In this document: in pieces, positions 4,463 through 46,941 of the stretch
Position numbering within the stretch: the stretch's first letter is position 1
Layout of the letters: each line of letters begins with the position of its first letter
Virus record (IMG/VR): IMGVR_UViG_3300024257_000017
Coordinates: 1 to 46,941 of that record
DNA: 46,941 nt
From: a virus
Reading direction: 5' to 3' (one strand)
Notes under the pieces: model-generated
Database searches by the model: none
What the model was told of the DNA's origin: nothing
The model's input: the letters and a program-made list of their open reading frames with translations, nothing else
Program-made: the position numbers and the translations under genes

Positions 4463-4870
4463 CTAATTAAAAACGACGACTTTTTTTTCTAATTTTTTGG
4501 CATGTTTTATAGTATCATTCGTACCCTTGCTTTCCTTACCCTTTGGTATAAACGCAAAAATATAATCTGAATATTCCGCTATCTGTTTATTCCTAGCTGA
4601 GTAATTCCAGACCCTATATGGCTTGTCATATTCAGTTTGCTCAAGAATACAATGGGAATTATATGGATAGTGTGCAGGCGGGAACGATACATATTTCATG
4701 TCCAATTCAAGGGCTATTTTTTTAGCCATTCCATCGGCACCCTGTTTCTGTTCTCCACTCACTATTTCTAAATCTTCCCCAAATCGTTCCTTAAGTTTAA
4801 AAATAACATCTTTTATTTTCCTCATGTTCACGTATTCACGACTTCCGATCACGCCTATTTTAACTGTCAT
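4463..4870 (-). CDS. SLOG-family (YpsA/DprA-like) nucleotide-binding protein
   Basis: The 135-residue protein has the marks of the SLOG superfamily: an N-terminal KIGVIGSREY strand-loop, the SGEQKQGADGMA motif (SGxxxGAD) near residue 39, RNKQIAEYSDYIFAF near 93, and the closing KGTNDTIKHAKK. Members bind nucleotides or nucleotide-derived ligands; phage versions have no settled role. Its start overlaps the end of the HNH endonuclease gene by 11 bases. Stop is TAG and no in-frame TGA occurs. Confidence 0.8.
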   Translation of the reverse strand: MTVKIGVIGSREYVNMRKIKDVIFKLKERFGEDLEIVSGEQKQGADGMAKKIALELDMKYVSFPPAHYPYNSHCILEQTEYDKPYRVWNYSARNKQIAEYSDYIFAFIPKGKESKGTNDTIKHAKKLEKKVVVFN

Positions 4871-5600
4871 ATTTTGCTCCTTTTTTTAAATTTTCTTCCC
4901 ATGGGATAAACCTCAGATTGTTAATATCCGCAATTTCAATAGGATCAATGCCATTCATAAATCCATAGTGAATTGATATTATATGATCTAAGTGATATGC
5001 ACCAACAGTTCCGGCCCGACCCCTGAGATCATAATTTTCCAATGTATCAAATTGTTGTTTTTCAGTCAAAAGTCTTACCCTTTTAAGATATAATTCTTTT
5101 TCTGGCATCTCACGTTCATATTGATCATAGGAATCGTACCCATATTTGATCATCAGCTGTTGTTTCGTATGTTCTGAATTTTGTTTGCTAATTCCCATTA
5201 ATATATCATTGTTATGTTTTGTAAGACCTTTATTTCAAGGCGAATTATGACTGAAATATCCATTTTCACGTATATATTCACGAACCTCCATTGACCTTTT
5301 CTTCCCTTTATTTGATTTGCCTATTTTCATATTTCACTCGGGCGTTCTATCGTAACCACTGGATATGCAACTCCGGCATCTAGTATTTCTTTTTATAGAC
5401 GTTCGTAAAGCAGTCCAAGAACTAAATTTTATCATATTACCACATTTGGGGCACTTTTTTTCCATTTCTTTTGGATTTGTGTATATTTGATGTGAACAGC
5501 TTTTGCATGACAAATTATGTTCTACCGCGTATTTTAACCTATATTTATTGCAATAATATTGATTTCTATTACATGTCGGGCATGTCTTTTTTCATTTCAT
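4860..5600 (-). CDS. HNH homing endonuclease with zinc knuckles, three in-frame TGAs
   Basis: Reading TGA as Trp joins several fragments into a 246-residue HNH endonuclease. The N-terminus has four CxxC knuckles (CPTC 7-10, CKSC 32-35, CPKC 50-53, CRSC 75-78), probably two zinc ribbons. A NUMOD-like motif P-W-NKGLTK follows at 121-128, with the Trp encoded by TGA. The C-terminus has the HNH motif YHLDHIISIHYGF...NLRFIPWEENLKKG near 204-243. TGAs are codons 3, 89 and 122 (5594-5592, 5336-5334, 5237-5235). The start at 5600 has an AGGAG site seven bases upstream. The first 30 bases overlap the end of a small basic protein gene in another frame. It is likely a free-standing mobile gene. Confidence 0.92.
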
Positions 5601-5736
5601 CCTTTTTCTCCTGATATTTCTTCTTAGCATCTTCAAGGATTTTTTCACGGTGGCGCCAATAGTAATCCATACGGTGTTTCCGTTTGGCTTCCAATTGTTC
5701 TTCTTCAGTCTCATACTTCCTTTTTCTACCAGCCAT
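5569..5736 (-). CDS. small basic protein of the GRxxKY family, copy 1
   Basis: A 55-residue, highly charged, probably helical protein starting MAGRKRKYETEEEQLEAKRK. It has two paralogues in the window (9042-9188 and 22576-22755) that share GR-x-x-KY-x-T-x-EE and a YW-x-R-x-REKI-like middle. It overlaps the start of the HNH endonuclease by 32 bases, just as copy 2 overlaps the GIY-YIG endonuclease, so it may be part of the same mobile unit or a DNA-binding accessory. The function is unknown. The start has an AAAGGA ribosome-binding site. Confidence 0.8.
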   Translation of the reverse strand: MAGRKRKYETEEEQLEAKRKHRMDYYWRHREKILEDAKKKYQEKKDEMKKDMPDM

Positions 5737-17159: not shown

Positions 17160-17185
17160 AACCTATTTTCCTTTGCATTAAAAGA

Positions 17186-17256
17186 GCGATTGGTAGGTCT
17201 CGAACCCACTCCTCTGATATGGAATACCAGCGTGCTACCTGTTACACTTCAATCGC
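17186..17256 (-). tRNA. tRNA-Gly (UCC)
   Basis: A complete 71-base cloverleaf on the minus strand. The acceptor stem GCGATTG pairs with CAATCGC, the D arm is GTGT/GCAC with a GG loop, and the anticodon stem CTGGT pairs with ATCAG around the loop ATTCCAT (anticodon TCC, preceded by T and followed by A). The T arm is GTGGG TTCGAGA CCTAC. CCA is not encoded. It reads GGA codons. It cannot decode UGA. Confidence 0.9.
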
Positions 17257-17268
17257 ATTTTATTTAGA

Positions 17269-17339
17269 GCGGCTGGAAGGTCTTGAACCAACTCCTTCAG
17301 CTGGAAAGCTGACATGCAATCCTGTTACACCTCAGCCGC
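17269..17339 (-). tRNA. irregular tRNA-like gene, possibly degenerate tRNA-Gly
   Basis: This 71-base sequence shares the D-arm GTGTAACAGG with the neighbouring tRNA-Gly and has a perfect 7-bp acceptor stem (GCGGCTG/CAGCCGC). Two parts are abnormal. The anticodon arm folds as TCAGC/GCTGA around a 6-base loop TTTCCA, and the T stem (GTTGG/CCTTC) has two mismatches although the T loop TTCAAGA is normal. It may be a decayed duplicate of the Gly tRNA or a non-canonical tRNA; the amino acid is uncertain. No UCA anticodon is present. Confidence 0.5.
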
Positions 17340-18033: not shown

Positions 18034-21000
18034 TTATTTTTCCTTTTGTTCTTCTTCAATTTGTGCCCACTCGGCATCGATCTCGCATACGTCAGTTCCA
18101 CAGTATTTGTCTGGATTTGCCATTTCACCGTCAACATGTAAAAAACTCAAATATTTCAATCCAGATAGGATTTCATCATATTTCTCTTCAGTAATTTCTT
18201 CGTATGGCATTTGTCTATATGCACCTTTTTCAACCTTAGGCAAGAATGATATACCTTTCAATTGATATTGGTAATAGTTTAACGCGTGTTTTAATTGAGG
18301 ACCTTCAGTTTCAGGATCAAACGTGATCGTACAACTAACAGCATTGTCCGCCCAATGCCGTTGCATAAACGCCGCTAGAGCCAACTGCTCCCACATAGTT
18401 AAGTCCTGCTTTGTCCTAATTCCGTCTCCCTCATCGATTGGAATTTCCAATACTACTGTGCTTTCTTCACTACCATATGCGGGTTCGATCTTATAACCAG
18501 CGGCTTCAAGTGGTTTTATCAGTTTACTATTCTTAGATAATCTAACACGCCTGATGTAAAATCGGCTCTCTGGATAATGTAATCCGGGAGTTGATCCAGC
18601 TAATAATGACACCGTGCCACTCGGTTTGACACTTGTAATTTTTATACTCTTATTGATGCATAACCAATCTGAATACATTGTGTCCCACTTTTTAATTTCA
18701 ACATACCCATCTTCTAACCATTCCCTAAGTACCCCCAAGCCCCTATTTGTGATAAACTGTGCAATACCAGATACAGATGTTCCAATTCTACGATTCCTGA
18801 GCATGACTCTATTTGTATCAGGCCAATGAGTTTTCCCAAGTGTGACCGTTTTTGCATAGAGATATGCATATTTCAATGTCCGTAGATAATCTTCTTTTGA
18901 CGTATGATTATTGGGGAATGTTTCTACAAGACAACACAATTCATATGATTCGAGCGATTGTTCTAAGCAATTATGAATAAATATTCCAGACGATTCCATA
19001 TATTTATCGTCAACATTTGACGTTATTATTCCAAAATTATGGGTATTTTCAACTGTCATATCATAAACATCTTCATGTCCATAAAATTCAATGGACAATA
19101 CTTTATGATTCCAAATGCCCCTATTTTCCATTCCCCGCTTAACATTGGAACAGGAGTAACTACAGGTTTTTCTAGTAGAAGCTTGATGTTCGGTTAATGT
19201 TTTTTGTTTATTACAAACTGGGCATTTCCAATCAACCCAAATTGTTTTTTCTTTCATTTTATCGGATATATGATTTCTAACTTCGGCGGTCATTCCATTT
19301 TTAATAGATTCTGTCATGAAATCTTTTTGATTTTCCCAATTTTCCTTCGATTTCTCACCTATGGATTTTAATGTGGATTTTTTATGATATTTGCCATACA
19401 TTGGATTATTTTCCGATAAATTATATCCTCTTTCTTCCCTTGTATTTTTCATCTTTTCTACACATTCCGGATTGTGCATTGGATTGTCAATTAATCTATG
19501 CAAACTACTATGCTCAGATTGTGTAATAATATCCAAATTATCCCATTCATCGTTTGTTTTATCAAAATCCACATGATGAATAGCATACTTTTTAGCGTCA
19601 GGCATATATCCAATTTTATTTTCCGTGATAAGTCTGTATTGCCTTATTCCACTCGCCTTTTTACCCGTTCCACTTATATTTCTATAACCTCTATTAAAAC
19701 TATTAAATGGAAATATCGAATCCCCTTCTTGCAAATCTTTAAGTTCTTTATACACGCCAGACCTTAACATAATTTTATGATTGGGAGTTGCCAATAAAGT
19801 AGAACCATCGTCTAAAATTAATTTCCATATTTCAGCATTTTCTTGTGTTTTCCAAGTTTTAATTGACTGACTTATTATTACTTTCCCATCATCATTAACT
19901 GAATAAACTGGATATATCGTATTTACCAAATCTTTAATAGGGATGGCGTTTCTACCATCCGCCACCGCAATTAAAGTATCTCCGACAACACAAGGATTGC
20001 CACCCTTTACCTTATGATCAATATTATCTTTGCCATTTTTCATTCTGGAATACCCCTGCATATTTTCTAACCATGCAAATCCAGGTTCTCCATTTTTAAC
20101 CACACGTTCGCACGCTTCCGTATAATCCATGCCCAGTTCGGCAAAGATTGAATTATTAGAAGTCCATCCAAATTCTTCACGTTGTGGGTTTACCTCATAA
20201 TTTTTAAGGTCAAGATACTCGGTATCATTGGGATCACCGAATACGATTTCAGCTGTACGCCTTACGTTTCCAGCAACCACACATTTGCCAATATGGTTCA
20301 TAATGTCCACAATAGTTGTGATTGTAATTGGGGCACCGATATTATCTTGCAATGTATCCCTCACACGTTCAATGGCATCTTCCAATGGTTTATACCCACT
20401 AGACGTTCCACCAAATCCTTTGATTGGTTCTCCCTCACCCCTGATTAATGAATAATCAAATTCCATCACAGATGTTCCTTGAAAGTAGCTTTCGATTACA
20501 AGTTTCATTGCCTCTACCCAACCTTCACGAGAATCTGGAACTTGGTATATTTCAACTGGTCTAGTCATATTGGGACCTTTGACAATAAGTGCCCCAGCTC
20601 CCTTTGTATCAAATCCAACGCCAACGCCCAGCATCGACGCATCCATAAGAAATGTAAATGGCTTGGCCAAATCATCCTTAAGATTTTCAGTAGATACAAA
20701 CGCACAATTATTAAGTGCGGCATACAATCCCTTTTCTTCGGTGATGGGAGTACCCATTGCCCACAATCCACGTCCGGGTGGTAAAAATTTCATTTCAAAT
20801 ATACGCTCGTACATTTCTTGTGCCGATCGCTGTGCTTGCCATGCATTCCATCCCAGACCGTCATTTTCTATGGATTTCTTCTGCATACTATATGTACCTT
20901 CAACTACACGCTGGACAGTTTCCCACCATTGTTCGTTTGAACCATCCTCTTTAATGCGTGAATATGTCCTCATATACACCAATGCCCCGAGACCGTTAAA

Positions 21001-21066
21001 CCCAAAGGGTGCCCGTTTTCTCTTAAACCCATCTATAAATTTATCCGATAATTTAAAATTTATCAT
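18034..21066 (-). CDS. nrdJ: class II ribonucleotide reductase (adenosylcobalamin-dependent) containing an intein
   Basis: The 1010-residue precursor contains a 341-residue intein; the mature enzyme would be 669 residues. Extein markers of class II reductases are FLPPGRGLWAMGTP near 94, NNCAFVSTENL (first redox Cys, 121), VVAGNVRRTAEIV near 263, the catalytic junction GGNP-CLEQSLESYELCCLVE across the splice site (Cys700), VKPSGTVSLLAGSTPG, and a C-terminal CGTDVC pair. It makes deoxynucleotides using adenosylcobalamin, so it depends on host or scavenged B12. All tryptophans are TGG. It lies between dUTPase and the helicase. Activity depends on intein splicing because the intein precedes the catalytic cysteine. 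Confidence 0.92.
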   Translation of the reverse strand: MINFKLSDKFIDGFKRKRAPFGFNGLGALVYMRTYSRIKEDGSNEQWWETVQRVVEGTYSMQKKSIENDGLGWNAWQAQRSAQEMYERIFEMKFLPPGRGLWAMGTPITEEKGLYAALNNCAFVSTENLKDDLAKPFTFLMDASMLGVGVGFDTKGAGALIVKGPNMTRPVEIYQVPDSREGWVEAMKLVIESYFQGTSVMEFDYSLIRGEGEPIKGFGGTSSGYKPLEDAIERVRDTLQDNIGAPITITTIVDIMNHIGKCVVAGNVRRTAEIVFGDPNDTEYLDLKNYEVNPQREEFGWTSNNSIFAELGMDYTEACERVVKNGEPGFAWLENMQGYSRMKNGKDNIDHKVKGGNPCVVGDTLIAVADGRNAIPIKDLVNTIYPVYSVNDDGKVIISQSIKTWKTQENAEIWKLILDDGSTLLATPNHKIMLRSGVYKELKDLQEGDSIFPFNSFNRGYRNISGTGKKASGIRQYRLITENKIGYMPDAKKYAIHHVDFDKTNDEWDNLDIITQSEHSSLHRLIDNPMHNPECVEKMKNTREERGYNLSENNPMYGKYHKKSTLKSIGEKSKENWENQKDFMTESIKNGMTAEVRNHISDKMKEKTIWVDWKCPVCNKQKTLTEHQASTRKTCSYSCSNVKRGMENRGIWNHKVLSIEFYGHEDVYDMTVENTHNFGIITSNVDDKYMESSGIFIHNCLEQSLESYELCCLVETFPNNHTSKEDYLRTLKYAYLYAKTVTLGKTHWPDTNRVMLRNRRIGTSVSGIAQFITNRGLGVLREWLEDGYVEIKKWDTMYSDWLCINKSIKITSVKPSGTVSLLAGSTPGLHYPESRFYIRRVRLSKNSKLIKPLEAAGYKIEPAYGSEESTVVLEIPIDEGDGIRTKQDLTMWEQLALAAFMQRHWADNAVSCTITFDPETEGPQLKHALNYYQYQLKGISFLPKVEKGAYRQMPYEEITEEKYDEILSGLKYLSFLHVDGEMANPDKYCGTDVCEIDAEWAQIEEEQKEK
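18970..19992 (-). mobile_element. intein with HNH homing endonuclease domain
   Basis: Precursor residues 359-699. The N-terminal splicing block is CVVGDTLIAVADG with Cys1, and block B is LLATPNHKIML with the TxxH histidine. The C-terminal blocks are VYDMTVENTHNFGI (F) and GIFIHN followed by extein Cys700 (G). The middle holds an HNH_3-type domain (AIHHVDFDKTNDEWDNLDII), a NUMOD3-like ENNPMYGKYHKK and a zinc ribbon (CPVC, then CSYSC). It is thus a full bifunctional intein. It contains no TGA, so it can be made under the standard code, unlike the free-standing endonucleases here. Confidence 0.93.
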
Positions 21067-23907: not shown

Positions 23908-25032
23908 CTATTCTTCTTCTAAAACCTCGTCATCCGGTTCTTCTGGAACCGTTTCTACTACGATTTCTTCATCGTCATTTGCGACATTTCTATACTTCAA
24001 TATAACATTTTCGCATATTTGTTGATATAGATATTCTTTCAATTTGGGATTCTTTTCAAGAACTTCCTCAAATTTCTTAGCTTGGAATTTTATCGATTTA
24101 TCTTCATACTCAATTGTGTACCAAGCTCCAGCTTGTTTTATAATCTTATATGCGGCCAATATCCTGATCCAACTTCCCAAGTCGTCAATGCCAGAGGCAA
24201 AATCGAGCTGAAATTCGGCTTTTCTCAATGGTGGTCCCATTCTATTTTTGATTACTTGGGCTCCAATTTTCATCCCAATTATCCGTTCCTTTGTACCAGT
24301 ACCAACTTTTATTCTGCCCATATTCTTCAATCGTATTCTAACTGAAGCGTGGAATGGCAGAGCCTTACCACCAGAAGTAGTCCATGGATCACCAAATCCC
24401 ACTCCCAATTTTTGCCTTAATTGATTTGTAAATACTAACGCCACACGTTGTTTGCCAATCGTCTGGGTAATTTTTCTCATGGCTTTTGAAATCACAATAG
24501 CTTTGGTCGTTGCCCAACCATCCTTATCATAATCGGCTTCCATCTCAACTTTTGTACTAGCAGCGGCAATACTGTCAACTAATATAGTAACCAATCGACC
24601 TTTTTCCGTTTCTCTAGTTTTGAGTATAATACTTTCGATGTGTTCGAAAATTTCTTCAACGGTTTCAACATGATCATAAATCATATTTCTAACATCAACG
24701 CCAATCGCTGTTAAAAACTGTGGACTAACAGATGTTTCCGTATCAATGTAAATGGCCACCCCACCCTTTTTTTGAGTATTGGCTAGGATATGGGCACCGA
24801 TAAGACTTTTACCGGTTCCTTCAAGTCCATTAAATTCTGTGATTCTACCTACTGGTATTCCTCCATGTGGAATATTAGATATTGCTAAATCTAATTCAGA
24901 CGATCCCGTTGAAATTCAATCGGATACGTCCGTAGGTGTTGATTCTCCATCCAGAAAATATGCAACTGTATCATCAGCGGCACTATTCAATGAATCGGCA
25001 ATTACTGAGGCTAATTCGTCTCGATCTCTCAT
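23908..25032 (-). CDS. uvsX: UvsX/RecA-type recombinase with in-frame TGA at codon 39
   Basis: With TGA at codon 39 (24918-24916) read as Trp, the gene is a 374-residue RecA-family recombinase: TPTDVSD-W-ISTGSSELDLAI, then Walker A GLEGTGKS at 69-76, IYIDTETSV, Walker B TILVDSIAAAS, LVFTNQLRQKLGVG (L1-like) and a C-terminal acidic tail. Stopping at TGA would remove everything from Walker A on, and a restart at the GTG at 24759 would delete the P-loop, so readthrough is needed for activity. It is the only TGA-bearing gene among the core replication enzymes. The upstream neighbour is gp32. Confidence 0.93.
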
Positions 25033-29330: not shown

Positions 29331-29849
29331 TTAATCTTCCTCATATCCATATAGTTCATCGAGATGTGCCCACATATCTGCAAAGAGTACCCCACGCTTT
29401 AGAGCGTATCTGAATGTTGGGTATTCCTTAGTGTATGCTTTAAACATGCGATGCCCGTTCCTCTTTGACCGGCGGGTGTTTGCAATCCTGTCCGATAATT
29501 TTAGAAACGTGGCTCCGTGGCTTTCTCTTGTTTTGGGGTAAGTTTTCATTCCCCGTTCAATTCTGTTTTTTCCCAATTCGTTGGTAACTCTATATACCAA
29601 ATCAGCAACTACCGTTCCAACCACCTTTTCCAAATCTCCATAGCTGGTATCTGTATCTTCCAATACGTCATGGTTCCATGCCGCTGAAATCAGTTGTTCG
29701 TAGTTTTCGGAGAATCCCCGAATTAGATGCTTAAATTCTTCAACCACGTTTACCACTTCGCTCAAGTGGGTTTCATATGGTTTTCCATCATAGGTTTGAT
29801 TTGCTATGCTGTGTCTATGTACTGCGTACGATTTTGCTTTCTCAATCAT
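29331..29849 (-). CDS. HD-domain hydrolase, MESH1/SpoT-like
   Basis: About 172 residues. The motifs follow small (p)ppGpp hydrolases: an early YAVHRHSIANQTYDGKPYETH, then AAWNHDVLEDTDTSYGDL (HD followed by ED) and KLSDRIANTRRSK. These would bind Mn2+ and cleave the 3'-pyrophosphate of alarmones. Phage-encoded versions could blunt the host stringent response. Two adjacent ATGs (29852, 29849) follow a GGAGG site, so the start is uncertain by one codon. The upstream gene overlaps it in another frame. Confidence 0.8.
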   Translation of the reverse strand: MIEKAKSYAVHRHSIANQTYDGKPYETHLSEVVNVVEEFKHLIRGFSENYEQLISAAWNHDVLEDTDTSYGDLEKVVGTVVADLVYRVTNELGKNRIERGMKTYPKTRESHGATFLKLSDRIANTRRSKRNGHRMFKAYTKEYPTFRYALKRGVLFADMWAHLDELYGYEED

Positions 29850-30561
29850 CATCTTCCTCCAAATAGTCGGTCATGTGTTCGTTTTCAAACATAACTTTTT
29901 CTAAAAATTCTGCCAGTTCCTTGATGTGATGGGCCTTAAATTCAAATTTGTCCCATTCTCTAATCATTCCAGAGCCTGAATCGATTGAATACTGACCATC
30001 GGGCTGAGCTGATAATGTCAATAAAGGTAATGGAACCGTTGTTGTCTCTTGCCCATAATAGGAACGTTTTTCCATTTCACGGGTTTTACTAGCTATATCA
30101 ATAGTTCTAGTCCCACGAGTTGTGACATTAAAATTTCCATCATCGAATTCTGAAATTGCGTTGTATTTGAAATCTTCAACTTTGTTTTTCTCATCGATTA
30201 ATTGCCGAATATGTTGCTCATATTGTTTCATCGCGTCGTTGGCCAATGTGAATATTTTCTTAAATTTACCCAATTTCTTTTCACGACGATCTCTGTGGTA
30301 CAGAAAAGAAGCGTATCCCGGTTCATATACAAATCTACCTGGAGACACATTTGAATAAATTTCAGTATGGGTAATCGAAATTCTGAATTCGTTTTCGTTT
30401 TCAATTTTACCAGAAGTGTTTTTACCCCAAATTCTGATATATTGGTCTCTTACCCGTTCAATTTCAATCGAAATATACGGACTTTTCTTAAACAATTGAA
30501 CCAAATTTAGGTTCAAAAATGCTTCTAATTTATCAAATTCTTGTTTGGTTACTATAGCCAT
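29815..30561 (-). CDS. hypothetical protein, TGA near its end
   Basis: The frame meets TGA at 29844-29842 after 239 residues (LEEDDD) and would continue W-ESKIVRST to a TAG at 29817-29815. Given that TGA is sense elsewhere, I take the TAG as the true stop, so the last nine codons overlap the hydrolase gene. The protein is rich in charged residues and has a central helical stretch (MKQYEQHIRQLIDEKNKVED). No family is recognised. If TGA does terminate in early genes, the end would be 29842. Confidence 0.65.
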
Positions 30562-30830: not shown

Positions 30831-30901
30831 CTTATCATACCTGAAGATACAAGATAAAAATGACAAAGTCAAGCGTTTTCTGCTATTATTTTAATTTATT
30901 T
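30831..30901 (-). repeat. 71-base direct repeat with promoter C (copy 2)
   Basis: Identical to 27493-27563. Here the repeat also encodes the last codons and the TAA of the RNA ligase gene, so the duplicated cassette has been joined to a coding end. The two copies lie about 3.3 kb apart in the same orientation and could recombine. Confidence 0.92.
30844..30872 (-). promoter_or_regulatory. early sigma70-type promoter C
   Basis: TTGACT (30872-30867), a 17-base spacer and TATCTT (30849-30844), then CAGGTATGATAAG. The whole block equals promoter B. It sits between the RNA ligase gene and the gene at 30563-30817. Confidence 0.9.
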
Positions 30902-31830: not shown

Positions 31831-32026
31831 TATGTAACCTCTTATAATCCTCGTCCTCAAATATGATTTTACCATCACGTTCCACACGGACAATATCAAA
31901 TTTTATGTTTTTCTTAGACGTGAAGTCTTCATTATGTGTGCCCCAAATGCTTCCAGCATAAGTTAGATACACCCTGTTATTTCTGAATGTCAATGAATCG
32001 TATGGTTGTAAATCTTTTAATTTCAT
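31817..32026 (-). CDS. small hypothetical protein, 69 aa
   Basis: The product MKLKDLQPYDSLTFRNNRVY continues with LTYAGSIWGTHNEDF and looks like a small beta barrel. It overlaps the RNA ligase start at its 3' end and the recoded end of its upstream neighbour at its 5' end. The function is unknown. Confidence 0.65.
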   Translation of the reverse strand: MKLKDLQPYDSLTFRNNRVYLTYAGSIWGTHNEDFTSKKNIKFDIVRVERDGKIIFEDEDYKRLHNVTN

Positions 32027-32382
32027 TTTTTTACCCTTATTTCTATCTCATATAAATAATCCCAATGGCCACTTGGTTGATATTTTATGACCTTTGGATG
32101 ATATTTTAATTTGTGCAATGTATCTTCAATCCCGAAGATTGTATCCATCGCCTGTTTTACACTATCTTTGCGAGTACCCATATTTCCACGAAATGATACC
32201 GAAATATTCACAGCCTTTCGTGATCTTCGGATTTCCACCGATCCCAATCCAGAATGATATGTTCCATTATCAGCCTGTCTGGCCACCTCTGCAACATCTG
32301 TTAAATTATCTGAATTTATTACATCCGATATTGTCCCATCCATATCTTCTGGTAGTTCAAATAGTGTGTGTTCGTCAGTCAT
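32017..32382 (-). CDS. hypothetical early protein, TGA near its end
   Basis: The first gene behind promoter D. After 119 residues (EIEIRVKK) it meets TGA (32025-32023) and, read as Trp, ends W-N-TAA two codons later, overlapping the next ATG. The protein contains SVEIRRSRKAVNISVSFRG and DTIFGIEDTLHKLKYHPK. The family is not recognised. Confidence 0.7.
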
Positions 32383-36764: not shown

Positions 36765-39212
36765 TTATAATGCATCCGGAATAATATAACCCAATCGTCT
36801 CATTAATTCAGCTTTCGTTTCCGAGTTCTCAGTCCTTTCAATTTGTTCTTCATTTTCGGCCTTTTCATCTTTTAGGAAATTTCGGTCGGATTTTTCCGTG
36901 TCAAGTTGATCCCTTACGGATATTCTCATTTTTCCCACAATGGAAGTTTTTCAGCTGGACGCGTCCAGCTCTTGTGTAGAACTCATAACCTGAAATAATA
37001 CCCGATCTTTATATTGGGAAGGCAGATAATTGCTTGTAAAACAATTTCCTGGGAAAATCCCAGATATACCATCCAATGTTAATGAGATTTCCAACGCGAC
37101 CATGGGATCAAAATCAATAGAAACCGATTCTTTTTCATCGTATGTAATTAAATATTTCATGACATCCAATCATGGAGTGTCCTTGGTATTTAATAAATTC
37201 CCCCAATATCCATAAACACTGCCAGTCAATGTGTCTTTATCTTCCGATTTGAAATTAAAATCAAAAAATTGTTTTTCGGTAAATTTCAACGTATGTATGC
37301 TTTTGACAGTTTCGGCGGTTTCATCATCGTGATTTTCTGAATCTGACCCTTTTTTATCAATGGCCTCAATACCAACATCGGGACCACTTTCCGTATCAAA
37401 TTTGGAATTTACCCCAGCGGATTTATTACCAAATTTATCAAAATTTCAACCGGGTTTAATATCATGAATCAGCCCGTCTTTATCACCAGGAGCACTACCC
37501 AATTTACTAGCAGCGACAATTTTAATGCCTCCCATTTGGGAAGGTGACGTAATTTCCTCAGCATTATCCCACATCATCGCCATAGCCATTTCATTTGTAA
37601 TTTTAGCATTTAATGATTGTGCAGTAACAATACTATCCTTACCCATAACTGGGAAATGGAATAAACCACCAGTAACAGTTTCTCAATATTTATCCAATTC
37701 ACTCGGAATTTTAAGCAACGATTTTACAGATTGTTTGGTAAGATTCATGTCTACAATCTTTAATGTACCGGGTCTATCTGGTGCAGATACCAATTGCAAA
37801 TCTCATATTCCAACATTTTCATTCATTCTCTCAAACAATTTTTTAAGTGCACTGGTGATATCAGACGCGTCATTGAATACATTTGTTATCAAATAATTCC
37901 AATTGAACATTATATTTCGCATGTATCCTATCTTTAAATTTTTATATTCAGCTGGATCATCAGTTACTTGGAACGTTGGGAAATCCTTATTAAAATCCCG
38001 CAATATCGGATGAACATCAGTAAGATCATCCACATTTCTATGCGATTGTCCAGGTAAAATAAAAAATTTATAATCTGGAGAAATCAATTTATCATGACTT
38101 GATATTTTAGTTGATTGTCATGCCAGCTGATCTGGGGGCAATCCTTCAGTTTCAGCCAATCCAGCCGTTTCGATTGTGTGTTGATCCCCGTTGTCTTTTA
38201 ATATAGGTTCTATACTTCGAATTGAACTTATTACTACACCGTGAGCGTCCACTTTGCTTAAATATTTATTTAATATATTATCTTCTATTCATCCCCATGA
38301 TATATATAATTCATGTGATCTCGGATCGGCACCGGTAGATGGTTCAAATCTATTCTTAATTCATTGTAATGGCATTCCTTCATTGCCAATTCCACCATCA
38401 TCCACATGTTTAAATTTTTCAAGTTTGGTTGAAATGTCCCTTAGAAATGTTTGGAAATTTTGTTTAAGTTCAACTTTTCGGTTATCATTTTTATCCGTTT
38501 TTGCGACATTTATATTGTCCACTGGAGTAATTCGTTGTTTTAATATGTCTAATCCCATTGAAGAAATATTGGTAGTGCAATCGATTCCCCCATCGTCTCT
38601 AGTCGATCATTCAAAATTGGTTACGAGACCAATCATACCATCATAAGTTCCATTGGAATTAAATGAATTTTCCATCATTTTTTTATGTGCCAATATCATA
38701 TCTGGGCTTTTTTCATTTATATCATGTAATACCATATCATTGTCCGAATATGAATATCCCCATTCTAAAATAACAGTTCTACCCGGTTTTAAAAAATATG
38801 GAGTATATTTGGTAACATCGTCAAATGACCAACAAGTCCAATTAATAGTAGCAGTACGCAATGTCGCCAATGTATTTTTATATTCAACACTAATACTTTT
38901 TACTCCAGGCATTGGTCTGTACTGATTATCACCAGTATTTCTAGGAGAATTATACATATCCTCAAAACCATAATATGCTTCTTGATTTTCTTTTAACAAT
39001 CCCCCACCTATTATTACAGGTTTATCATCTTTGATAAGCCCAACCATCCGGATTCAAGTCGATTTTGCAAAAATGTTATTTGCGTCGGCTTTCTTTTTCC
39101 CAGTACCATCGGTCTGCGGACCTTCAAATAGTATGCCTTCTCTATTTAACAACTTTTGTCGTCTGTGCAATTCCGCCCTAATTTTACTATGTATGGGTTG
39201 TAGATTAATCAT
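36765..39212 (-). CDS. baseplate-like structural protein, ten in-frame TGAs
   Basis: Under the standard code this region is a series of fragments. With TGA as Trp it is one 815-residue protein ending in TAA. TGAs are codons 53, 202, 284, 308, 365, 470, 510, 589, 681 and 754, all exactly in frame. Typical contexts are IFAKST-W-IRMVGLIK, LVTNFE-W-STRDDGG and ELYISWG-W-IEDN. TGG occurs about seven times, so both codons serve. Segments such as LKPGRTVILEWGYSYSD and DAHGVVISSIRSIEPI resemble large tail/baseplate proteins of marine T4-type phages. It begins two bases after the gp53-like gene. Confidence 0.93.
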
Positions 39213-39214
39213 TA

Positions 39215-39517
39215 TTAAAACCCCCTATTTAATTCTTCCAAATCACTAAATATTTGTGCAGTGTCGGTGGGTATTCTGATATCCAGTCCAGATTTTAATG
39301 TAAAATTTGCATCATCTATATCATTGGCAAGTGCTATTATCCACCACAACGATGTGTCTCCATAATATTTAAATGCAAGCAAATCTAGCCTGTCACCTTT
39401 TTTGGACATTGTGAAAATATCAGAATCCAATATTGGAATCTTGGGATACAATGTAGTCTTAAATACACGGTTTTTTAAAGAATTTCTTTTTATATTGGTG
39501 TGTGTATATCTACCCAT
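39215..39517 (-). CDS. 53: LysM-like baseplate wedge protein, gp53-like
   Basis: 100 residues. SKKGDRLDLLAFKYYGDTSL, then WWIIALANDI and LKSGLDIRIPTD form a LysM-like fold: a D-x-LD-x-LA-x-x-YYG-x-x-x-x-WW-I-x-x-x-N pattern used by gp53-type baseplate proteins that attach the wedge. It contains no TGA, in contrast to both neighbours. It is separated by three bases from the recoded genes on each side. Confidence 0.8.
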   Translation of the reverse strand: MGRYTHTNIKRNSLKNRVFKTTLYPKIPILDSDIFTMSKKGDRLDLLAFKYYGDTSLWWIIALANDIDDANFTLKSGLDIRIPTDTAQIFSDLEELNRGF

Positions 39518-39520
39518 TTT

Positions 39521-42500
39521 TTAATCCTCCCACGATGGATCAGACCATGAAAATGGTCCATCGCCCTTTCCAGATTGCCCCATTTCCGCGAACAATTCCC
39601 TTAAATCCATCCCATCGGAATGCCTATCGGGATAATTGCCATTTGGATTATCCAAATATGCAGTGGAACTTTTATTATTGTTATTTTTATAATCCAGCCA
39701 ATCCAAATCATAATGCTTACCCTTTTGAGCCGGCTTGTGTTTTCCAATGTATTTATACCCAACACTAACACTTAAATGCTTGGGCAATTTGAAATGATCA
39801 TCCAATTCCCAAGTGGTGTTATCTTCTACCGTTATTGATAAGCTGGTTAAAAATCCTGGAGCCCCCGTTCACATATTACCAATGGTCAATTCGGCAAATG
39901 GAGATACCATTCGTTCCATATCACTATTGGAAAAATCTTTTCAGCTGGGGTAACACATTCCAATTAAATAATTCATTTTTTCTCATAAAATTGGCAGTTC
40001 CTGTTTCGTCTTTGGATATACATTGAAATTGAAACTTATTTCCCTGTCCACTCCAGCGTATGTATATACTTTATCGGGGCGGCCTATGTATTTTTCTTCT
40101 GATCAATCTGGTGTAACACTATCCGATATCCCAGACAGAATGGCTCTGAAAATGATTCATTTATTATTGACCACATCTTTAAATTTAAATGGAATGAAAT
40201 CTCGTACTTCTAAATTGTTAATTTCCTTTGGCTCTTTTCCATTAACACTCCCGTATGGTAGGGCATTAACTTTGTCAACCTTACTTGTCATAAGCTTACT
40301 CGATCCCAAATCGGCCTTAATATGACTAAAACCAGCCTTTTTCAAACCGGCATTAAATGTCTCGGGCCTAAAGAAAAATCCATCTCCGGTTGTTTCAGAC
40401 CCATCTGTAAATTGTCTAAGAATTCCAGCATTACTTTGATCTCCAACATCAATTACAGCAAATTTTTCATCATCACCAAATTGATCTTTTCGAATTCTAT
40501 CTATCTCTCTACTTGCTTCCGCATTATTGCCCAGTAGACTTCCCAGTTTTGATAATAACGGATTTGTTCCCGGATTATCTATAATTGCTTCTTCTTTTCT
40601 GAAATGATAATTCAATGAATTTTCACCCCAATCAACAAGTTTTGTATCTAAAGGATTGGCCGCTTCGAATTCCAAAACGGTAGATGATACAAGTGGTGAT
40701 CCAGTATTCCAATGTCGGTTGATATGAACTGTAGGCGTTATAGAACCCAATGACAATGGATTCCATGTTCTAGTTTCTTCCTTAGTATTAAGGGTCTGCA
40801 ATGCCACTTGTTTTATTCCAAATAGAACACCTTTAGTCGAAAGTATAAATTTGCCGATTCTGAATACATCGGCAATAGTTCTTGATATGGATGTAATTAA
40901 TCCACCACGTACTATGCCCTCATCAAAAGCGCCTGTATTACCCAATCCATATTTATCTCCTATATCATGAAGGTAAAATGGTTGGTTAAATCCTATATCA
41001 TTATGTCCATCTCCAATTCTATAATTGAGTTCATCACCGTCTTTAAATCCACGGCCGTAATAATTATCCAAATTTGTAGCATCATCATTTCCCCACGAAT
41101 CTTTATGCAAATCTTTTAAGCGTGATTGATCACCACGTGTGTTATTTGTTATTGAGCTGCCCTCTCCAATTTTGGCCACGGAAGGAGAATAAGCCTCCCC
41201 CCTATAAAAACCAGTATTCAGAAATTTTGGTGAATTTTCATTCTGTTTGCCCAATTGAAAATTTCTAGTATATGGTTCCATTGTCAATGTGGTACTGGTA
41301 TCAAAATATTGAATTCTAGATCGTCGTTTGTATGTTTTTGTATATGACTTGCCTATACTGAATGTTTTAAACCACGAATCCGTAGGACTTGGAGTATCTT
41401 CTTTTGTAGGTAAAGCGATATTGGAATTCAATGACGACAATGCTTCATATGCATGCCCAAATATATCCGTAAATGTCATGTTTATTGCATCGCCGGTTTT
41501 AAATCTACTGTCTTTAATTGGTCCAAATAAGCTGGCAAATTGTAATGTTGATGTAGGTTTAGTAGACGCTTTATTTGGTAGGTATGTTCCAGCCCAATCA
41601 ATGTTTTCATCCGAATCGGTCAGTATTCTAGTCTGTAATCCATAATTACCAACAAAACTATATTGTTTTGGAATATGAAATGTAGGTTGTTTTCCATCCA
41701 CAAATGATGTATTGATAGCATCTTTAGTTGTGGATCATACTGGAGCAGTCGCTATTCTAGATAATTGTCTAGCTCTAATAGTAGTTGGATTGTGTGCGGC
41801 CAAATTGACATCACCCTCAATCCAATGCAATGAATCTTCAAAATCTACCTCTGGATAATGATCAAAAAATGTTCGGTCTGTTTTCTCATATGATATTGGA
41901 ACACCAGTATCAGCTATGTCTCCTGTCATATATTGAACAGAATCTGCAAATGGAATCGCCGTGTGATGATTAAATGCCGCTCTAGTTTTAGCGTATGAAA
42001 TTGGCAATGTTATCGCCGGAGTGTCATAAACAATATCAGGATTAGTTACCGATGTTTCAATTGGAGGAGCATATCTACTAATATAACTGGCAATTGGAGT
42101 AGTCATAAAATCACTCCCATGTGCGCCCAATGTACTGGGTGTCGTATTTATTGCCGTTTGATATGTTTCACCAGCGGTTGGTCCAGTTAATGTAATCATA
42201 CTTACATTATGAGTTAATGAATCTGAAAATCCCTGCAGATTACTTATGTTATTAGCAATTGGAGTAGTCATAAAATCGCTGTCATATGCATTAGGTGCCG
42301 CAAAGATGATAGGTTCCAATGTATCTAACCCCACAGTATGTCTGGTTGTACTTAGTGCCATTGTGTCATTTGGTGCCAGTTTTGAGTCCCCGTATGCCAT
42401 ATTAAAAGTAAATCCAGCGGGCAATGTCCCAGGTCCCCATTCTCCAGTAACCCCACTAAAATAATTAACAGGACCAGTTTGAATACCTTCACCAGTTGGG

Positions 42501-42775
42501 TGTACCTGACTGCCCACCGCTTCCAGCATATTAGCTAATGCACTTTCATTGGGTCTATCAAATTCTTTATTTCCAGTAACAGTATATCCATGACCATCAT
42601 TAAATGATTGTGCATTACTTGAATTACCAACTCCAGTATCAAGTTGAGAATGCTCAATTGAATGTGCAGGCATGGATGGAGTTTCATTTGATAATCCACC
42701 ATGGCGTCCACCATGTTGACTTAAATTGTCTCCAGCACCAGCTGATAAATCACTTGTTAAATCTATAATACTCAT
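39521..42775 (-). CDS. large tail/baseplate structural protein, six in-frame TGAs
   Basis: A 1084-residue protein if TGA is Trp at codons 347, 873, 891, 931, 945 and 969. The C-terminal domain reads VTPD-W-SEEKYIGRPDKVYTY, ELPIL-W-EKMNYLIGMCYPS-W and TIGNM-W-TGAPGFLTSLS, a conserved tail-protein domain in which the first Trp position is Trp in relatives I recall. The N-terminal third has two pairs of internal repeats (SDFMTTPIA and PISY-x-KT-x-x-x-F). Stop TAG or TAA occurs only at 39521. It overlaps the tape measure stop (TAATG). Confidence 0.92.
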
Positions 42776-45477
42776 TAGTCCGATACTCCCAGTTCTCCAA
42801 CTTTACCAGTCAGTTTGTTCATCAAATCCTTATTTTGTTTTAATAATTCCCTATTTACACCCACTATTTGAGTTAATAATTTATTCGTTTCGGCCATATC
42901 AGTCGCTTGATTAACAGTATTTCCATCTCCAGAAACAGTCACATCCGACGATCCACCTATTCCAGTCAATTTGTCCAATACAGGCAAAAATGGAGACAAT
43001 AATAATGCCCCGCCAGCCAGTTTTGCCATACCTCAACCAAGTTTACCAAATGCTTCTCCCAAGCTTATTATGGAAGATGTCATTGGGGCCAATTTTGTAA
43101 GTATAGGTTCAAAACTAAGAAATCCAGCAGATAACATAGTAAATCCAGTTCCTATCGCCTGAATAGCATATCCCAATACCAATAATCCGCCAGCCATTAT
43201 TACCATTGCTGCCGCACCAGCCAAAATTGCCACAGTTCCAACACCACTAGACATTATTGCCCCCAATGCTAATACCGCTACTACCAATCCACCCAATGCT
43301 AAAGCGGCCTTACCCAAACTGGGCCAATCCACTTTATTAAATACCACCAATGCCTGTGCGGTTATGTATAATGCACCAGCCACAATTACCATTGCTGCAG
43401 CACCAGCCAACATCTTTTTGGGATTAATTCGTTCCACGAATCCAAGTCCAGCCTTACCCTTTGGCTTTGGAGCTTTTGCAAATCTTCCTTTAGCATCTCT
43501 TAATCTGCCAGCCTTATCTGTTGATAATCCACCCTTTGAAGAGGCCATTCCAGATATCAAACCTTTCATTTTGCCCAACTTTGTGAGCATTCCATTGCCA
43601 ATAATTCGTTTTCTGAATAATAAAGCAACCGCAGCGAGAGCTGTCAGGCTCGCCAATAATCCTGGAGAATATTCATACAGTTTTTTAATACCAGTGACCA
43701 ATAAACCAACGGAGGCCACCATCAATGCAAATTTTGCCGCTATCGCAATAACTGGTAGTAAAAGTACGCCGACTGTTATAGCTATTATTTTTCAATTTTT
43801 AACCATTCATTCTAATGCTGGAGCTATATAGTCAGTTATCCACCCACTCATCGTTTCCAATATTGCAGGTATTTTTTCACCAATGGACTCTAACATTGGT
43901 TGAAATCTTTTCTTTAAAGCCCCAGTAATGTCGTTCCACGCGGTCCCGATATTCTTTACCATTGCAGCGTGTTTTTCTGCAGCGGCAGTTTGATCGGTTG
44001 ACATATGATTTAAATGCTCTTGATTCAATACCATTTTTGTTAATTCTTCAACTCCCACACCAAATGCTGCAGCTAATTTTTTCCTTTGGAAATACTGCAT
44101 ATTTTCCAGTTCCGCTTGACTACCAACTTGTTTTAATACCTCTCGTTGCATTCCTGCCAAGTCACCTGTAAATGCCAATTGTCTAGCTTTATCCGTATTG
44201 ATATTTCTGCCTAATAGAATTGATGCTTCCATTGAAGATTCGATTGAACTTTCAAAATCCAATAGACTTTCAGCCATTTTTGCAGTCGTTGCAATACTCA
44301 ATCCCAATTTACGAGCTTCGATTGCCGCTGTAAATAAATTGTCCCCACCGTCTTTTGCGTATGTGGCGAACATTTCGGTGTCCCCAGCCAAATCTTCCAT
44401 AACTGCCGCTGGAGCAACTTTGTTTGCTCGAGCCAATTCACCTACCATTGCCAAACTATGCATTGATGCTGAAAAGGATGAACCTGATACAGCCATCATC
44501 ATTTCAGCCAATTTAGCTGTAGATTCGGCGGATACCCCATATTGGAATCCCAATAATTTCATTTTCATTAAATTTTGACTTGTCGCTATATCAAGTGAAC
44601 CAAACTCAGCCAATAGTGCTTTCGCTTCCTCTCGCGCAAACAATATGGCCGGTCCAAATTGAATTAATTGACCATATGAAAATCCAGTTTCATTACCGAA
44701 ATCAACCATTTTCTTACCCAATGCTACTAACCCCACCCCTATAGCCAAAATGCCAACTTTAAGGGCCGTTATTGGATTGGTGACAATGGATATCAATTTG
44801 GCCTTTATATCACCCCATTTTTCCTTTTGAGCTTCAATTTTTGAATTTAATTCTGTATTTTTTTTGTTTATCAAATCATGCATTTTTGACTGTGCTTGCA
44901 TACTTTTAACATTTTTGATTTGAGCGTTTATCAGTTTAATATTATTTTCAACACCTTGTTCCGTAATATCATATTCACCGTCGGCCAGAGATTTTCTAGT
45001 TTTCATCAGATCGGATAAATGTGAAGATAAATCAACCGTTTCAAATTCTTCAGAATTTAAATTCTTCCGGTTGTGTACCATAGCCAAACCCAAATCCATA
45101 GTTTCACTAGATAAATCTCGTATTTTTTGCAGTGATTCCGATTCCTTTAGGGTAATTCCTTGCAGAGTTGCCATATTGTCAGTTCAATTGACTGTATTTT
45201 GTAGAATCTTTTGTTGTGACTTGCTAAGATTGGCAAATTTTTTCCCGAGATTTTCTATTTGAGTTTCGTTTGTAGCGGTGTTTTTTATTTTTCTCTTTAA
45301 TTCGGCATTTTGCTTTTTTATATTTTGATATGTTACTTCTTCGGCCGCACTACGTTTTTTACCCTTTTCTGCCAAAGTATCGGCCTTTTCAATTTGCTCA
45401 TCAAGCTTCGTGATTTGAGCTCGCATTAAATCAAGTGTTTCTTTGGCCTCAATATTTCTAGAAGTTCGTTTTGCCAT
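42775..45477 (-). CDS. tail tape measure protein, four in-frame TGAs
   Basis: 900 residues when TGA is Trp at codons 98, 557, 562 and 815. The N-terminal 100 residues are coiled coil (TLDLMRAQITKLDEQIEKAD). The middle is typical of T4-type tape measures (SYGQLIQFGPAILFAREEAK, MASS- and Ala/Met-rich helices). The region 557-815 has several long hydrophobic stretches (KIIAITVGVLLLPVIAIAAK, LAALAVALLF-like) that would cross the host membrane at injection. A short coiled coil (TNKLLTQIVGVNRELLKQNK) ends it. It should set tail length. Stop TAA overlaps the next ATG. Confidence 0.92.
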
Positions 45478-45500
45478 TTTATTTAATCCTTACCAATCCA

Positions 45501-45740
45501 TTACCGTTTGAAATATTCAGACATGAATTCTTTTTTTGTAATAACCCTTTCAAGTTTATCAATATCCACTTCTGCCCAAGCAGCATTTGCCGATTTTATT
45601 CGTCGATCCAATTCTTTTCTATGTTTTTTTATTTCTGGATGATTCTTTATATACTTCTTGGCACCTTTCGTGTCATTTCTAAGTAGAAATGTTAAAAAGT
45701 TATCCAATATATCCATGATGCCCTCATTTAATTTACTCAT
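45501..45740 (-). CDS. hypothetical structural-operon protein, 79 aa
   Basis: Helical and charged (LDNFLTFLLRNDTKGAKKYI, then KNHPEIKKHRKELDRRIK). It lies just upstream of the tape measure start and overlaps the preceding gene by eight bases. Position next to the tape measure suggests tail assembly, but no motif confirms this. Confidence 0.65.
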   Translation of the reverse strand: MSKLNEGIMDILDNFLTFLLRNDTKGAKKYIKNHPEIKKHRKELDRRIKSANAAWAEVDIDKLERVITKKEFMSEYFKR

Positions 45741-46008
45741 AATTTTCTCCGATTAATTTGGCAATAATATCCGCGACGATATCTGATTGTTCGTCATTTA
45801 TAGCATGTAAATCTGATAAATAATGCCCAAATAAATGTCTAGCCTGATATATGGAATCGCATGATTGTTCTTTTATTCTTATAAAATATGGAGGATTGGT
45901 AGTATCACATTTATCATCAACCAGTGCCGGCACAATGTCCGGCACTTCGATTAAATATTTACTACATAACCGTTCAAATTCATTCTTAATTGTTTTGTAT
46001 GAACTCAT
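45733..46008 (-). CDS. hypothetical structural-operon protein, 91 aa
   Basis: Acidic, helical protein: MSSYKTIKNEFERLCSKYLI, then CDSIYQARHLFGHYLSDLHA. AGGA precedes the ATG, and an AT-rich promoter-like motif lies at 46022-46040. The family is not recognised. Confidence 0.65.
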   Translation of the reverse strand: MSSYKTIKNEFERLCSKYLIEVPDIVPALVDDKCDTTNPPYFIRIKEQSCDSIYQARHLFGHYLSDLHAINDEQSDIVADIIAKLIGENYE

Positions 46009-46046
46009 AGTTCAATCCTATCTATTTACATATAAATATCAAATTC

Positions 46047-46250
46047 CTAAGTTTTCAGTTGTGGACCACGCGCAATACCCGAATTCTTATTTTGGGCTTT
46101 ATCGTGTGCATCTTGTTCATCTTTGATAGATTTTTGAATCATTTTTATATAGAAGCGGCGGAGCCATACGGGCATGTGATACACCTCAGTATGATTGAAT
46201 CCGCCGTTCCCATGATAACACAAAGTATAGATTTCTTCGTGTACGGTTAC
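46047..46250 (-). CDS. tail assembly ORF lacking a normal start, possible frameshift product
   Basis: The frame encodes VTVHEEIYTLCYHGNGGFNH, then TEVYHMPVWLRRFYIKMIQK and a charged tail to TAG. This EEI-x-x-LCY-x-GNGGF phrase resembles small proteins of T4-type phages encoded next to baseplate-hub genes. No ATG, GTG or TTG occurs before the conserved region in this frame (the first ATG is at MPVW). The frame is +1 relative to the preceding gene and is open across a run of seven T at 46278-46272 in that gene. It may be expressed as a frameshift extension, or from a rare start. Confidence 0.6.
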   Translation of the reverse strand, partial: VTVHEEIYTLCYHGNGGFNHTEVYHMPVWLRRFYIKMIQKSIKDEQDAHDKAQNKNSGIARGPQLKT

Positions 46251-46251
46251 T

Positions 46252-46941
46252 CTATACTCTGGCGGAAGGCCAAAAAAACTGGACCGTCATAGGGACAGTC
46301 ACCTCCTCAGCATGAGCACACAATGAACATTCAAAGTTGTATGACATATCAACATCTGGTGTGATATTTCTAAGGTGTTCTCTGAATGGCATTGAATCTA
46401 CTGCCAATAAGCTGGTATCTACAAAGTTATTAATGAAAGCTCGTTCTGAATTTCCATTGACACTTGTAATCACTTTTTTCAGTCTGGTTGTGATATCACT
46501 TTCAACGTCGTTTTTACTAATTTTCTTTAGACCCTTGAGTTCGGCATCAATTTCACGTTCATCCTTTTGGGTGAGCAATTTGAATTTAATATCAATTTTC
46601 GACTTTGGAAGTGTTCAACTGAATTCATTAATTCCTTTTTCAAGACCATCAAAACTGACAGCTTTTTCAACTAATAGGGTTAGATCGACACTATCCTTAT
46701 TATGTTCTGAACATGCAGGACAATCGACTTCAAAGTTATAATCTTTGCCATATCCTAATACGCGGGCCGCTACCATCAATGCATTTTTGTCTCCAATAAG
46801 CATTGAATCTAAATCAATAGATTTGTCAACTACGAGGGACTTTAATAACTTGTCAATAACCACCCCCCTTCTTATTAAGTTTTGTGATGTTAAAATATCT
46901 TCATCTTTTGCGGTCATATACCGCATCTCTAATTCGCCTGA
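46252..46941 (-). CDS. T4-type baseplate hub/assembly protein, partial, one in-frame TGA
   Basis: The gene enters from beyond the right edge (the frame is open there: SGELEMRYMTAKDEDILTSQ). A zinc-like pair CPAC and later CSLC, the conserved KGINEFS-W-TLPKSKIDIKFKLL with Trp encoded by TGA (46617-46615), and the closing VPMTVQFFWP fit the T4 gp26/PF12322-like baseplate family. The stop is TAG. The N-terminus is missing. TGG and TGA are both used for Trp. Confidence 0.82.

Follow-up and report, generated by a model that had tools for sequence, protein, structure and literature searches.

Opal-recoded phages and the T4-type phage studied here

Phages in which TGA specifies tryptophan have been described before. 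In the crAss-like phage Lera TGA stands for Trp and occurs within 41 ORFs, mostly structural among those with a predicted function, and opal-recoded crAss-like phages include genomes recoded without a detected suppressor tRNA as well as a case in which a close relative is not recoded (PMC12386605). Among phages predicted to use translation table 4, a Sup-TCA tRNA is present in only 11 of 73, and 22 of the 27 cases from INPHARED are Mycoplasma or Spiroplasma phages; a T4-type case is not named in the sections on these predictions (PMC11210395). In code-4 phages, structural and lysis genes contain TGA within their reading frames, an arrangement proposed to delay late proteins (work cited in PMC10746230). 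In the light of these sources, the suggestion of a previous sequence-only reading of the present locus that its use in a T4-type phage with such a gene-by-gene pattern looks new is too strong as far as the kind of phenomenon is concerned. What our results would add to the opal-recoded phages is a lineage of T4 type; our searches of open-licence PMC papers turned up no earlier report of one.

Here we analysed a stretch of 46,941 nucleotides (the window) of one phage, for which environmental DNA is the sole source, together with other assemblies of this phage and a 140 kb contig of a sister species. The comparisons presented below indicate that both this T4-type phage and its sister species very probably use UGA as a sense codon for tryptophan, a recoding of the code-4 type. 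The code would be that of the predicted table-4 phages (PMC11210395). Lera and ct1yV3 are gut crAss-like phages with many tRNAs including Sup-TCA, whereas ours is T4-type, and its available sequence yielded two or three tRNAs of Gly type but no Sup-TCA. In some code-4 phages RF1, TrpRS and a suppressor tRNA for UGA are phage-encoded (work cited in PMC10746230). We found none of these here; the searched parts of assemblies G002-G004 contained no UCA tRNA and no protein with an RF-1 domain or a tRNA-synt_1b (TrpRS-type) domain.

The T4-type label given to the phage from sequence alone fits its synteny with Flavobacterium phage vB_FspM_immuto (NC_055915; immuto) and the gp23-like major capsid protein of the sister. 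The order of tail genes, which in our phage runs hub, tape measure, large protein, wedge-like protein and baseplate protein, is common to both phages, and our hub is 50.6% identical to that of immuto. The capsid, terminase and portal proteins of the sister show 50-52% identity to those of immuto, with 52% for the major capsid protein (PHROG major head protein); the immuto capsid protein had no match in the available sequence of our phage, so that the gp23-type protein is seen in the sister only. Immuto differs from our phage in that its aligned tail genes are free of TGA, and in its annotated tRNAs (Cys, Ser, Glu and Gln, against the Gly-type tRNAs of ours).

In-frame TGA codons of the tail and baseplate genes

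Four adjacent minus-strand frames of the tail/baseplate block, translated with TGA as Trp, contain 10, 6, 4 and 1 in-frame TGA codons and no TAA or TAG, while under the standard code they are interrupted at the TGA positions. The ten belong to a baseplate-region gene of 815 amino acids (36765..39212), a homologue of immuto gp033 (annotated as 'carboxypeptidase'), and the six to a structural gene of 1084 amino acids (39521..42775) whose C-terminal region is homologous to immuto gp035; neither protein found a match in a PHROG search. Four lie in the tail tape measure gene (42775..45477; 900 amino acids, PHROG tape measure) and one in the baseplate hub gene (46252..46941; PHROG baseplate hub), which has 229 amino acids in the window, is truncated by the window end and reaches its full length of 257 amino acids in assembly G003. 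Coordinates and TGA counts that had been proposed earlier for the four genes were reproduced, and the absence of TAA and TAG from the broken frames was borne out. All 21 codons are likewise TGA in each of three other assemblies of the phage (21/21 in G001, in G002 and in G003). As TGA accounts for about 0.26 of random stops at 36% GC, the probability of 21 out of 21 stops being TGA by chance is about 1e-12.

The residue read at TGA was inferred from homologues with TGA masked and the sister contig L029 left out, a procedure that in a control recovered 51 of 52 sense codons. Homologue residues were available at 19 of the 21 tail-block sites, and the per-site scores summed over them were highest for Trp (12.3), followed by Tyr (8.5), Phe (5.3) and then Met (-2.7). 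Tabulated in this way, the homologues prefer Trp, as the sequence-only reading had expected. Against this, the summed Trp score is lower at TGA, with 12.3, than at TGG, with 27.8 (19 sites each). Codon 202 of the 815-residue protein (W 17, Y 2, F 2) and codon 891 of the 1084-residue protein (W 21, Y 5, F 2) stand mostly opposite Trp. Several other sites of the block are opposite mainly Phe/Tyr or mixed residues, among them hub codon 137 (F 47, Y 34, W 1) and tape measure codons 557 and 562 (mixed), and these count against Trp.

Comparison with the sister species over 59 reciprocal-best gene pairs revealed an exchange between the two codons. Taking our codon first and that of the sister second, we counted 14 TGA:TGG columns (two of them in weak alignment), 5 TGG:TGA, 11 TGA:TGA (one of them with TGA within a promoter-like repeat) and 190 TGG:TGG, alongside 3 TGA:Tyr and 2 TGA:Leu. 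The promoter-like repeat includes a TGA in five ORFs of the sister and in one of ours. Homologue residues, the TGA/TGG exchange with the sister and a NUMOD3 domain match that spans one TGA thus support the assignment of TGA to Trp.

TGA as probable sense codon and as stop in the two genomes

The sense reading proposed for the tail/baseplate block is supported there, but the pattern extends beyond it. TGA outside the block occurs in UvsX, in the NUMOD3 gene and in an epimerase gene. The UvsX/RecA-like recombinase (23908..25032, minus strand) has TGA at codon 39, and its sister counterpart contains TGA too; a glycosyltransferase gene (2603..4198, minus strand) has it at codon 9, as does the sister, and here a start 3' of the TGA is possible. 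A weakly supported ORF of 284 amino acids (4860..5714, minus strand; no match in a Pfam search) carries three TGA codons, two of them in contexts that by eye resemble the TPWNKG of NUMOD motifs. The terminase and portal genes of the sister contain TGA, and its major capsid and tape measure genes have none.

The two AT-rich genomes have about six TGG codons for every TGA (330:53 and 440:73). The DNA polymerase (13159..15660, minus strand; 12 TGG) and the ribonucleotide reductase with its HNH-domain insertion (18034..21066, minus strand; 22 TGG), taken for contrast, lack TGA altogether. Virion (late) genes have TGA/TGG counts of 24/54 in our phage and 18/83 in the sister, against 1/49 and 2/56 in replication genes, in classes that were set, and a bias that was tested, only after the counts had been seen. 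The replication class omitted the true SSB gene (25083-25844) and one further listed gene from the comparison, and included an EEDDD-tailed gene with no assigned function (29815..30561, minus strand) whose terminal TGA went uncounted under the end rule; as the SSB sits elsewhere, the EEDDD-tailed gene was rejected as a candidate for it. With less strength than the assignment itself, these counts suggest that TGA is the minor of the two Trp codons and is used more in virion genes than in those for replication. Of the gene-by-gene pattern described earlier, the larger share of TGA in virion genes stands in both species, and a switch limited to four genes does not.

As a stop, TGA is nearly lost in both species and is depleted in comparison with their relatives. 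In 32 relative loci TGA ends 134 of 512 genes, and only 2 of the 134 have a long coding extension, whereas 9 of 14 TGA-ended standard ORFs in G003 and 19 of 31 in the sister continue into long coding sequence. Seventeen TGA-ended ORFs of G003 and the sister are without a long extension, and 13 of them hit TAA or TAG within 16 codons. In the EEDDD-tailed gene TGA follows the acidic tail, eight codons before TAG, with the sister's TGA at the same place; in a short gene (32017..32382, minus strand) TGA is followed by one codon more and then TAA, and the sister ortholog stops at our TGA. Because TGA lies at or next to the gene end of the other species in two ortholog pairs, some stop use may persist. 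Recoding was seen only in these two species among the relatives compared, which retain TGA stops, so that the change looks confined to a two-species clade. Two recoded species beside relatives with TGA stops, with a low share of TGA, make a useful case of phage code change: hardly any TGA stops are left, and TGA-Trp has spread further into virion genes than into replication genes. A practical warning is that the tape measure, hub, terminase and portal genes of phages like these come out fragmented when genes are called with the standard code.

Candidate decoders of UGA

During infection a Trp-charged tRNA would read UGA and outcompete release factor 2, and in the late phase decoding would have to be strong enough to translate a gene with ten UGA codons. 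The tRNA in question would most likely be encoded in phage DNA outside the assemblies, with a UGA-reading host as the next candidate. The first option, a phage Trp suppressor tRNA with anticodon UCA in the unassembled part of the genome, is the one we favour, though we stop short of calling it probable. Lera and ct1yV3 carry tRNA-Sup-TCA, and the TGA genes of Lera with predicted function are mostly structural (PMC12386605), which matches the late bias of both our species. Both genomes may extend beyond the assembled sequence that was searched for a decoder; immuto baseplate-region proteins gp108, gp109 and gp111-gp113 had no match in G002-G004, so a genome segment may be missing or diverged. 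What speaks against this option is that about 84 kb of our phage and 140 kb of the sister yielded no UCA tRNA by ARAGORN and Rfam, the cluster found being Gly-type. Permissive Rfam scans covered positions 17000-17600 of the window, the remainder of ours being searched by ARAGORN, and sister loci L202-L205, L207 and L208, with L206 covered by an RF00005 search and a scan around the tRNA cluster; ARAGORN lists at low threshold were noise. A scan for contigs extending the ends of our phage yielded no useful extra length.

A host that reads UGA as Trp, with the phage following or adapting to its code, is possible but less likely. It would explain both the missing suppressor and the lost TGA stops, and the Mycoplasma and Spiroplasma hosts of 22 of the 27 table-4 INPHARED phages (PMC11210395) give it a precedent. 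The late bias would be left unexplained by host code alone. Moreover, TGG is about six times as frequent as TGA despite the AT-rich genome, unlike the codon use of code-4 hosts. A pattern scan of GTDB for Trp-type UCA tRNAs returned 73 loci, 33 of which were then run through ARAGORN, and pointed to many Mycoplasmatota and to three contigs of Flavobacteriales MAGs. Two of these (L218 and L246) were rejected as recoded hosts for their mitochondrial-type genes (cytochrome b, NADH dehydrogenase) and the third (L244), with an S4 domain only, for its resemblance to them; since prfB is also present in the bins of all three, they provide no evidence for a recoded host. When two 20-kb pieces were compared at the DNA level with 395 genomes from the order to which G033 belongs, matches at E <= 0.01 occurred in 170 and 129 genomes and were mostly short. 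The one genome followed up, G159, contains two contigs from relatives with the standard code, and this is at best evidence from binning.

Near-cognate reading of UGA by an ordinary or altered tRNA-Trp(CCA), with RF2 low or blocked in infection, seems unlikely. PMC13092985 lends it support, and TGA is a minority codon, rarer in replication genes. A follows TGA at 25 of 46 chosen sites in our phage (16.4 expected from other A-ending codons; one of the 46 falls in a promoter-like repeat) and at 18 of 35 in the sister (12.0 expected), an excess that is modest (p 0.013 and 0.048) with sites partly common to both. A shortage of T after TGA, which this reading would also predict, is not significant (9/46 against 13.7 expected; 7/35 against 9.9), and the shift against TGG is mostly common to other A-/G-ending codon pairs. 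Ten UGA codons per gene would demand high efficiency, and no RF2 antagonist was identified. Slightly more doubtful still is a T4-type lineage early in its code change with no suppressor of its own, in which tRNA-Trp(CCA), A after UGA and RF2 activity falling in the course of infection would suffice, and virion genes would tolerate UGA but replication genes shun it.

Pseudogenes or assembly errors, for which only the broken standard-code frames speak, are extremely improbable given the TGA codons common to three other assemblies, the lack of TAA and TAG in the four frames and the TGA/TGG exchange in the sister. In Gracilibacteria and Absconditabacteria UGA encodes glycine, and the tRNAs found here are Gly-type; such a reading is just as improbable, as their anticodons read UCC and ACC rather than UCA, Gly is outside the five best residues at TGA and no Gly codon stands opposite TGA in the sister columns. 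The cluster comprises a tRNA-Gly(UCC) (17184..17256, minus strand) and a divergent Gly-type tRNA with a six-base anticodon loop (17267..17339, minus strand), rejected as a suppressor because of the UCC in its loop and because both ends carry identity elements like those of tRNA-Gly. The sister has this divergent tRNA too, with changes in the stems that preserve pairing, and its pattern matched three contigs of the viral contig set, all from the two species.

TGA as a sense codon in the tail block

The tail block of this 46,941-base virus record comprises four adjacent minus-strand frames, encoding proteins of 815 (36765-39212), 1084 (39521-42775) and 900 amino acids (42775-45477) and a hub gene truncated at the window end (46252-46941), which contain 10, 6, 4 and 1 in-frame TGA codons, respectively, and are open only if TGA is read as sense. 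PHROG matches identified the 900-amino acid protein as the tape measure protein and the product of the window-end gene as the baseplate hub, with no match for the 815- or 1084-amino acid protein, and the tail gene order is that of the T4-type Flavobacterium phage vB_FspM_immuto. Three IMG/VR contigs (G001, G002 and G003) are other assemblies of our phage (identity of at least 99.8%), and each keeps TGA at 21 of the 21 sites described in the sequence-only reading. Together, G003 (71.8 kb) and 11.8 kb from the start of G002 extend the known genome to approximately 84 kb.

That reading had also proposed Trp as the very probable meaning of TGA, and the homologue tabulation suggested to check it ranks Trp first. 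With TGA masked as X and 84 relative loci searched (the 85 loci of the clade comparison below minus the sister contig L029), at least one homologue residue was available at 19 of the 21 sites, the summed per-site scores being 12.3 for Trp, 8.5 for Tyr, 5.3 for Phe and -2.7 for Met, the next residue. As a control, 51 of the 52 sense codons represented by at least ten sites were assigned their standard amino acid by this approach. The strongest columns lie in the 815-amino acid protein at codon 202 (W 17, Y 2, F 2) and in the 1084-amino acid protein at codon 891 (W 21, Y 5, F 2). Counter-evidence came from hub codon 137 (F 47, Y 34, W 1) and from the mixed residues at tape measure codons 557 and 562; at many sites in the 815-amino acid protein, no more than one to three homologues were available. 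TGG sites outscored TGA sites for Trp (27.8 over 19 sites versus 12.3), indicating that TGA tends toward less conserved positions.

Searches with DNA polymerase and hub revealed a second species, the sister phage (G004, a contig of 140,003 bases), with 82-83% identity to ours in these two proteins and 45-53% in the large tail proteins; G005 and G031/L029 apparently belong to it as well. Aligned columns over 59 reciprocal-best gene pairs (ours:sister) comprised TGG:TGG 190, TGA:TGG 14, TGG:TGA 5 and TGA:TGA 11 (one of the latter inside a promoter-like repeat and one near a gene end), together with TGA:Tyr 3, TGA:Leu 2, Cys:TGA 1, Tyr:TGA 1, TGA:gap 7 and gap:TGA 11. Discounting two TGA:TGG columns that rest on a 28%-identity alignment leaves 12 TGA:TGG and 5 TGG:TGA better-supported exchanges, in which the two codons behave as synonymous ones would. 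These comparisons of sequences argue that the recoding is real and that TGA means Trp.

Extent of the recoding in the genome and among relatives

Sense TGA had been placed across the tail block, where it holds, but it is not limited to that block: UvsX has a TGA at codon 39 in both species, one TGA of ours falls within a NUMOD3 match, the epimerase has TGA in ours opposite TGG in the sister and vice versa, and the sister terminase and portal genes contain three and five TGA, some of the latter in an HNH-like region. Counts of TGG:TGA over called genes with 150 codons or more, doubtful ORFs included, were 330:53 for our phage and 440:73 for the sister; because CAA outnumbers CAG and GAA outnumbers GAG in these genes, TGA is used below the level suggested by base composition alone. 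Leaving TGA in the last nine codons uncounted, TGA:TGG was 24:54 in virion (10 genes) and 1:49 in replication genes (6 genes) of ours (Fisher P = 2e-5), and 18:83 (13 genes) and 2:56 (10 genes) in the sister (P = 0.011), in sets picked after the counts were known, with some virion labels assigned by position only and with genes of no known function in the replication sets (1 of 6 and 2 of 10, respectively; one of the sister's two replication TGA sits in such a gene). The bias varies among virion genes: in the sister, neither the major capsid gene (7 TGG) nor the gene for the tape measure (8 TGG) contains TGA.

Stop codon usage was compared with 32 relative loci, drawn from approximately 127 relatives outside the clade and some looking like copies of one phage. 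Over their 512 called genes the stops are TAA (321), TGA (134) and TAG (57); a long coding extension follows the TGA end in 2 of the 134. Among standard-code ORFs, TGA is the stop of 14 of 69 in G003 and of 31 of 140 in the sister, and 9 and 19 of these, respectively, continue into long coding sequence. For 13 of the remaining 17, a TAA or TAG follows within 16 codons; as such short distances are common in relatives too (69 of 132 TGA ends have TAA/TAG within 8 codons), this is not put forward as a sign of selected backup stops. In two cases (32017-32382 in ours; the sister ortholog of G002 974-1291) TGA falls where the ortholog in the other species ends.

In the tail protein comparison of 85 loci (the best 80 of 598 hub relatives, plus 5 further loci), in-frame stops inside alignments came from the sister contig L029 alone, seven of seven being TGA, and the 815-amino acid protein matched 9 of 29 records, with TGA in two, both from the sister. 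Contigs C3 and C32 (44 and 43 kb; loci L310 and L312-L316), two different contigs of a Flavobacteriales genome bin (G159, of the same order as G033), are standard-code relatives. Within the relatives searched, the recoding thus appears limited to a two-species clade. TGA recoding is already known as a kind; the T4-type lineage, low TGA share and missing decoder make this a good case, though not a revolutionary one.

The decoder

In the parts searched of both possibly unclosed genomes, ARAGORN and Rfam found only Gly-type tRNAs, and no decoder for TGA. Our phage has a tRNA-Gly(UCC) and a divergent Gly-type tRNA, and the sister has three of Gly type, including tRNA-Gly(ACC); in each genome they lie in the corresponding region between reductase and polymerase genes. 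RF-1 and tRNA-synt_1b domains were looked for in the parts of G002-G004 searched and neither was found; searches with five immuto proteins from the baseplate region gave no match in these contigs. PMC11210395 gives a suppressor tRNA for TGA (Sup-TCA) in just 11 of the 73 phages for which table 4 is predicted, and PMC12386605 describes several opal-recoded crAss-like genomes without a detected one. Its absence here is therefore not evidence against recoding. In the divergent tRNA (17267-17339, minus strand; also L117 8398-8471), the anticodon loop has 6 bases (TTTCCA) and the T stem contains two T-T mismatches. This tRNA is also conserved in the sister, where the acceptor and anticodon stems show paired changes.

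Near-cognate reading of UGA by tRNA-Trp is a live option. In E. coli, A after UGA favours reading by the normal tRNA-Trp. A followed TGA at 25 of 46 sites in ours (16.4 expected from other A-ending codons; P = 0.013) and 18 of 35 in the sister (12.0 expected; P = 0.048), in hand-picked genes with sites partly common to both species and one of the 46 in the promoter repeat; T was not significantly rarer in either. A precedent in E. coli, reported in PMC13092985, is UGA reading by a tRNA-Trp(CCA) with a 4-bp stem.

Promoter-like repeat, hosts and insertions

A dispersed repeat, TTGACTTTGTC...TCTTGTATCTT (also written TTGACTTTGTC(N)TCTTGTATCTTCAGGTATGA), looks like a canonical -35/-10 promoter in its sequence; the Bacteroidota promoter consensus differs from this. 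It occurs at 26968-27052, 27479-27563 and 30817-30901 in ours; the sister has 22 sense-strand copies (L202-L208), against 0.38 expected there (50 shuffles). Its TTGACT creates false in-frame TGA in over-extended ORFs.

Hosts of named relatives are Flavobacterium, Rhodothermus and Microcystis, and a GTDB scan for a recoded host gave no usable candidate. Three Flavobacteriales MAG contigs (L246, L244 and L218) with UCA tRNAs and many in-frame TGA were dropped as they look organellar, L218 carrying cytochrome b and L246 NADH dehydrogenase, and their bins seem contaminated. Patescibacteria MAG contigs L222, L248 and L250 also carry a UCA tRNA, with many TGA in long frames of L222 and L250, whose lineages are perhaps UGA-recoded; PMC13092985 reports one such case in Patescibacteria.

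The ribonucleotide reductase gene (18034-21066) carries an HNH-type insertion, with HNH matches within residues 385-641, and the sister DNA polymerase match is approximately 1 kb longer than ours, probably owing to another insertion.
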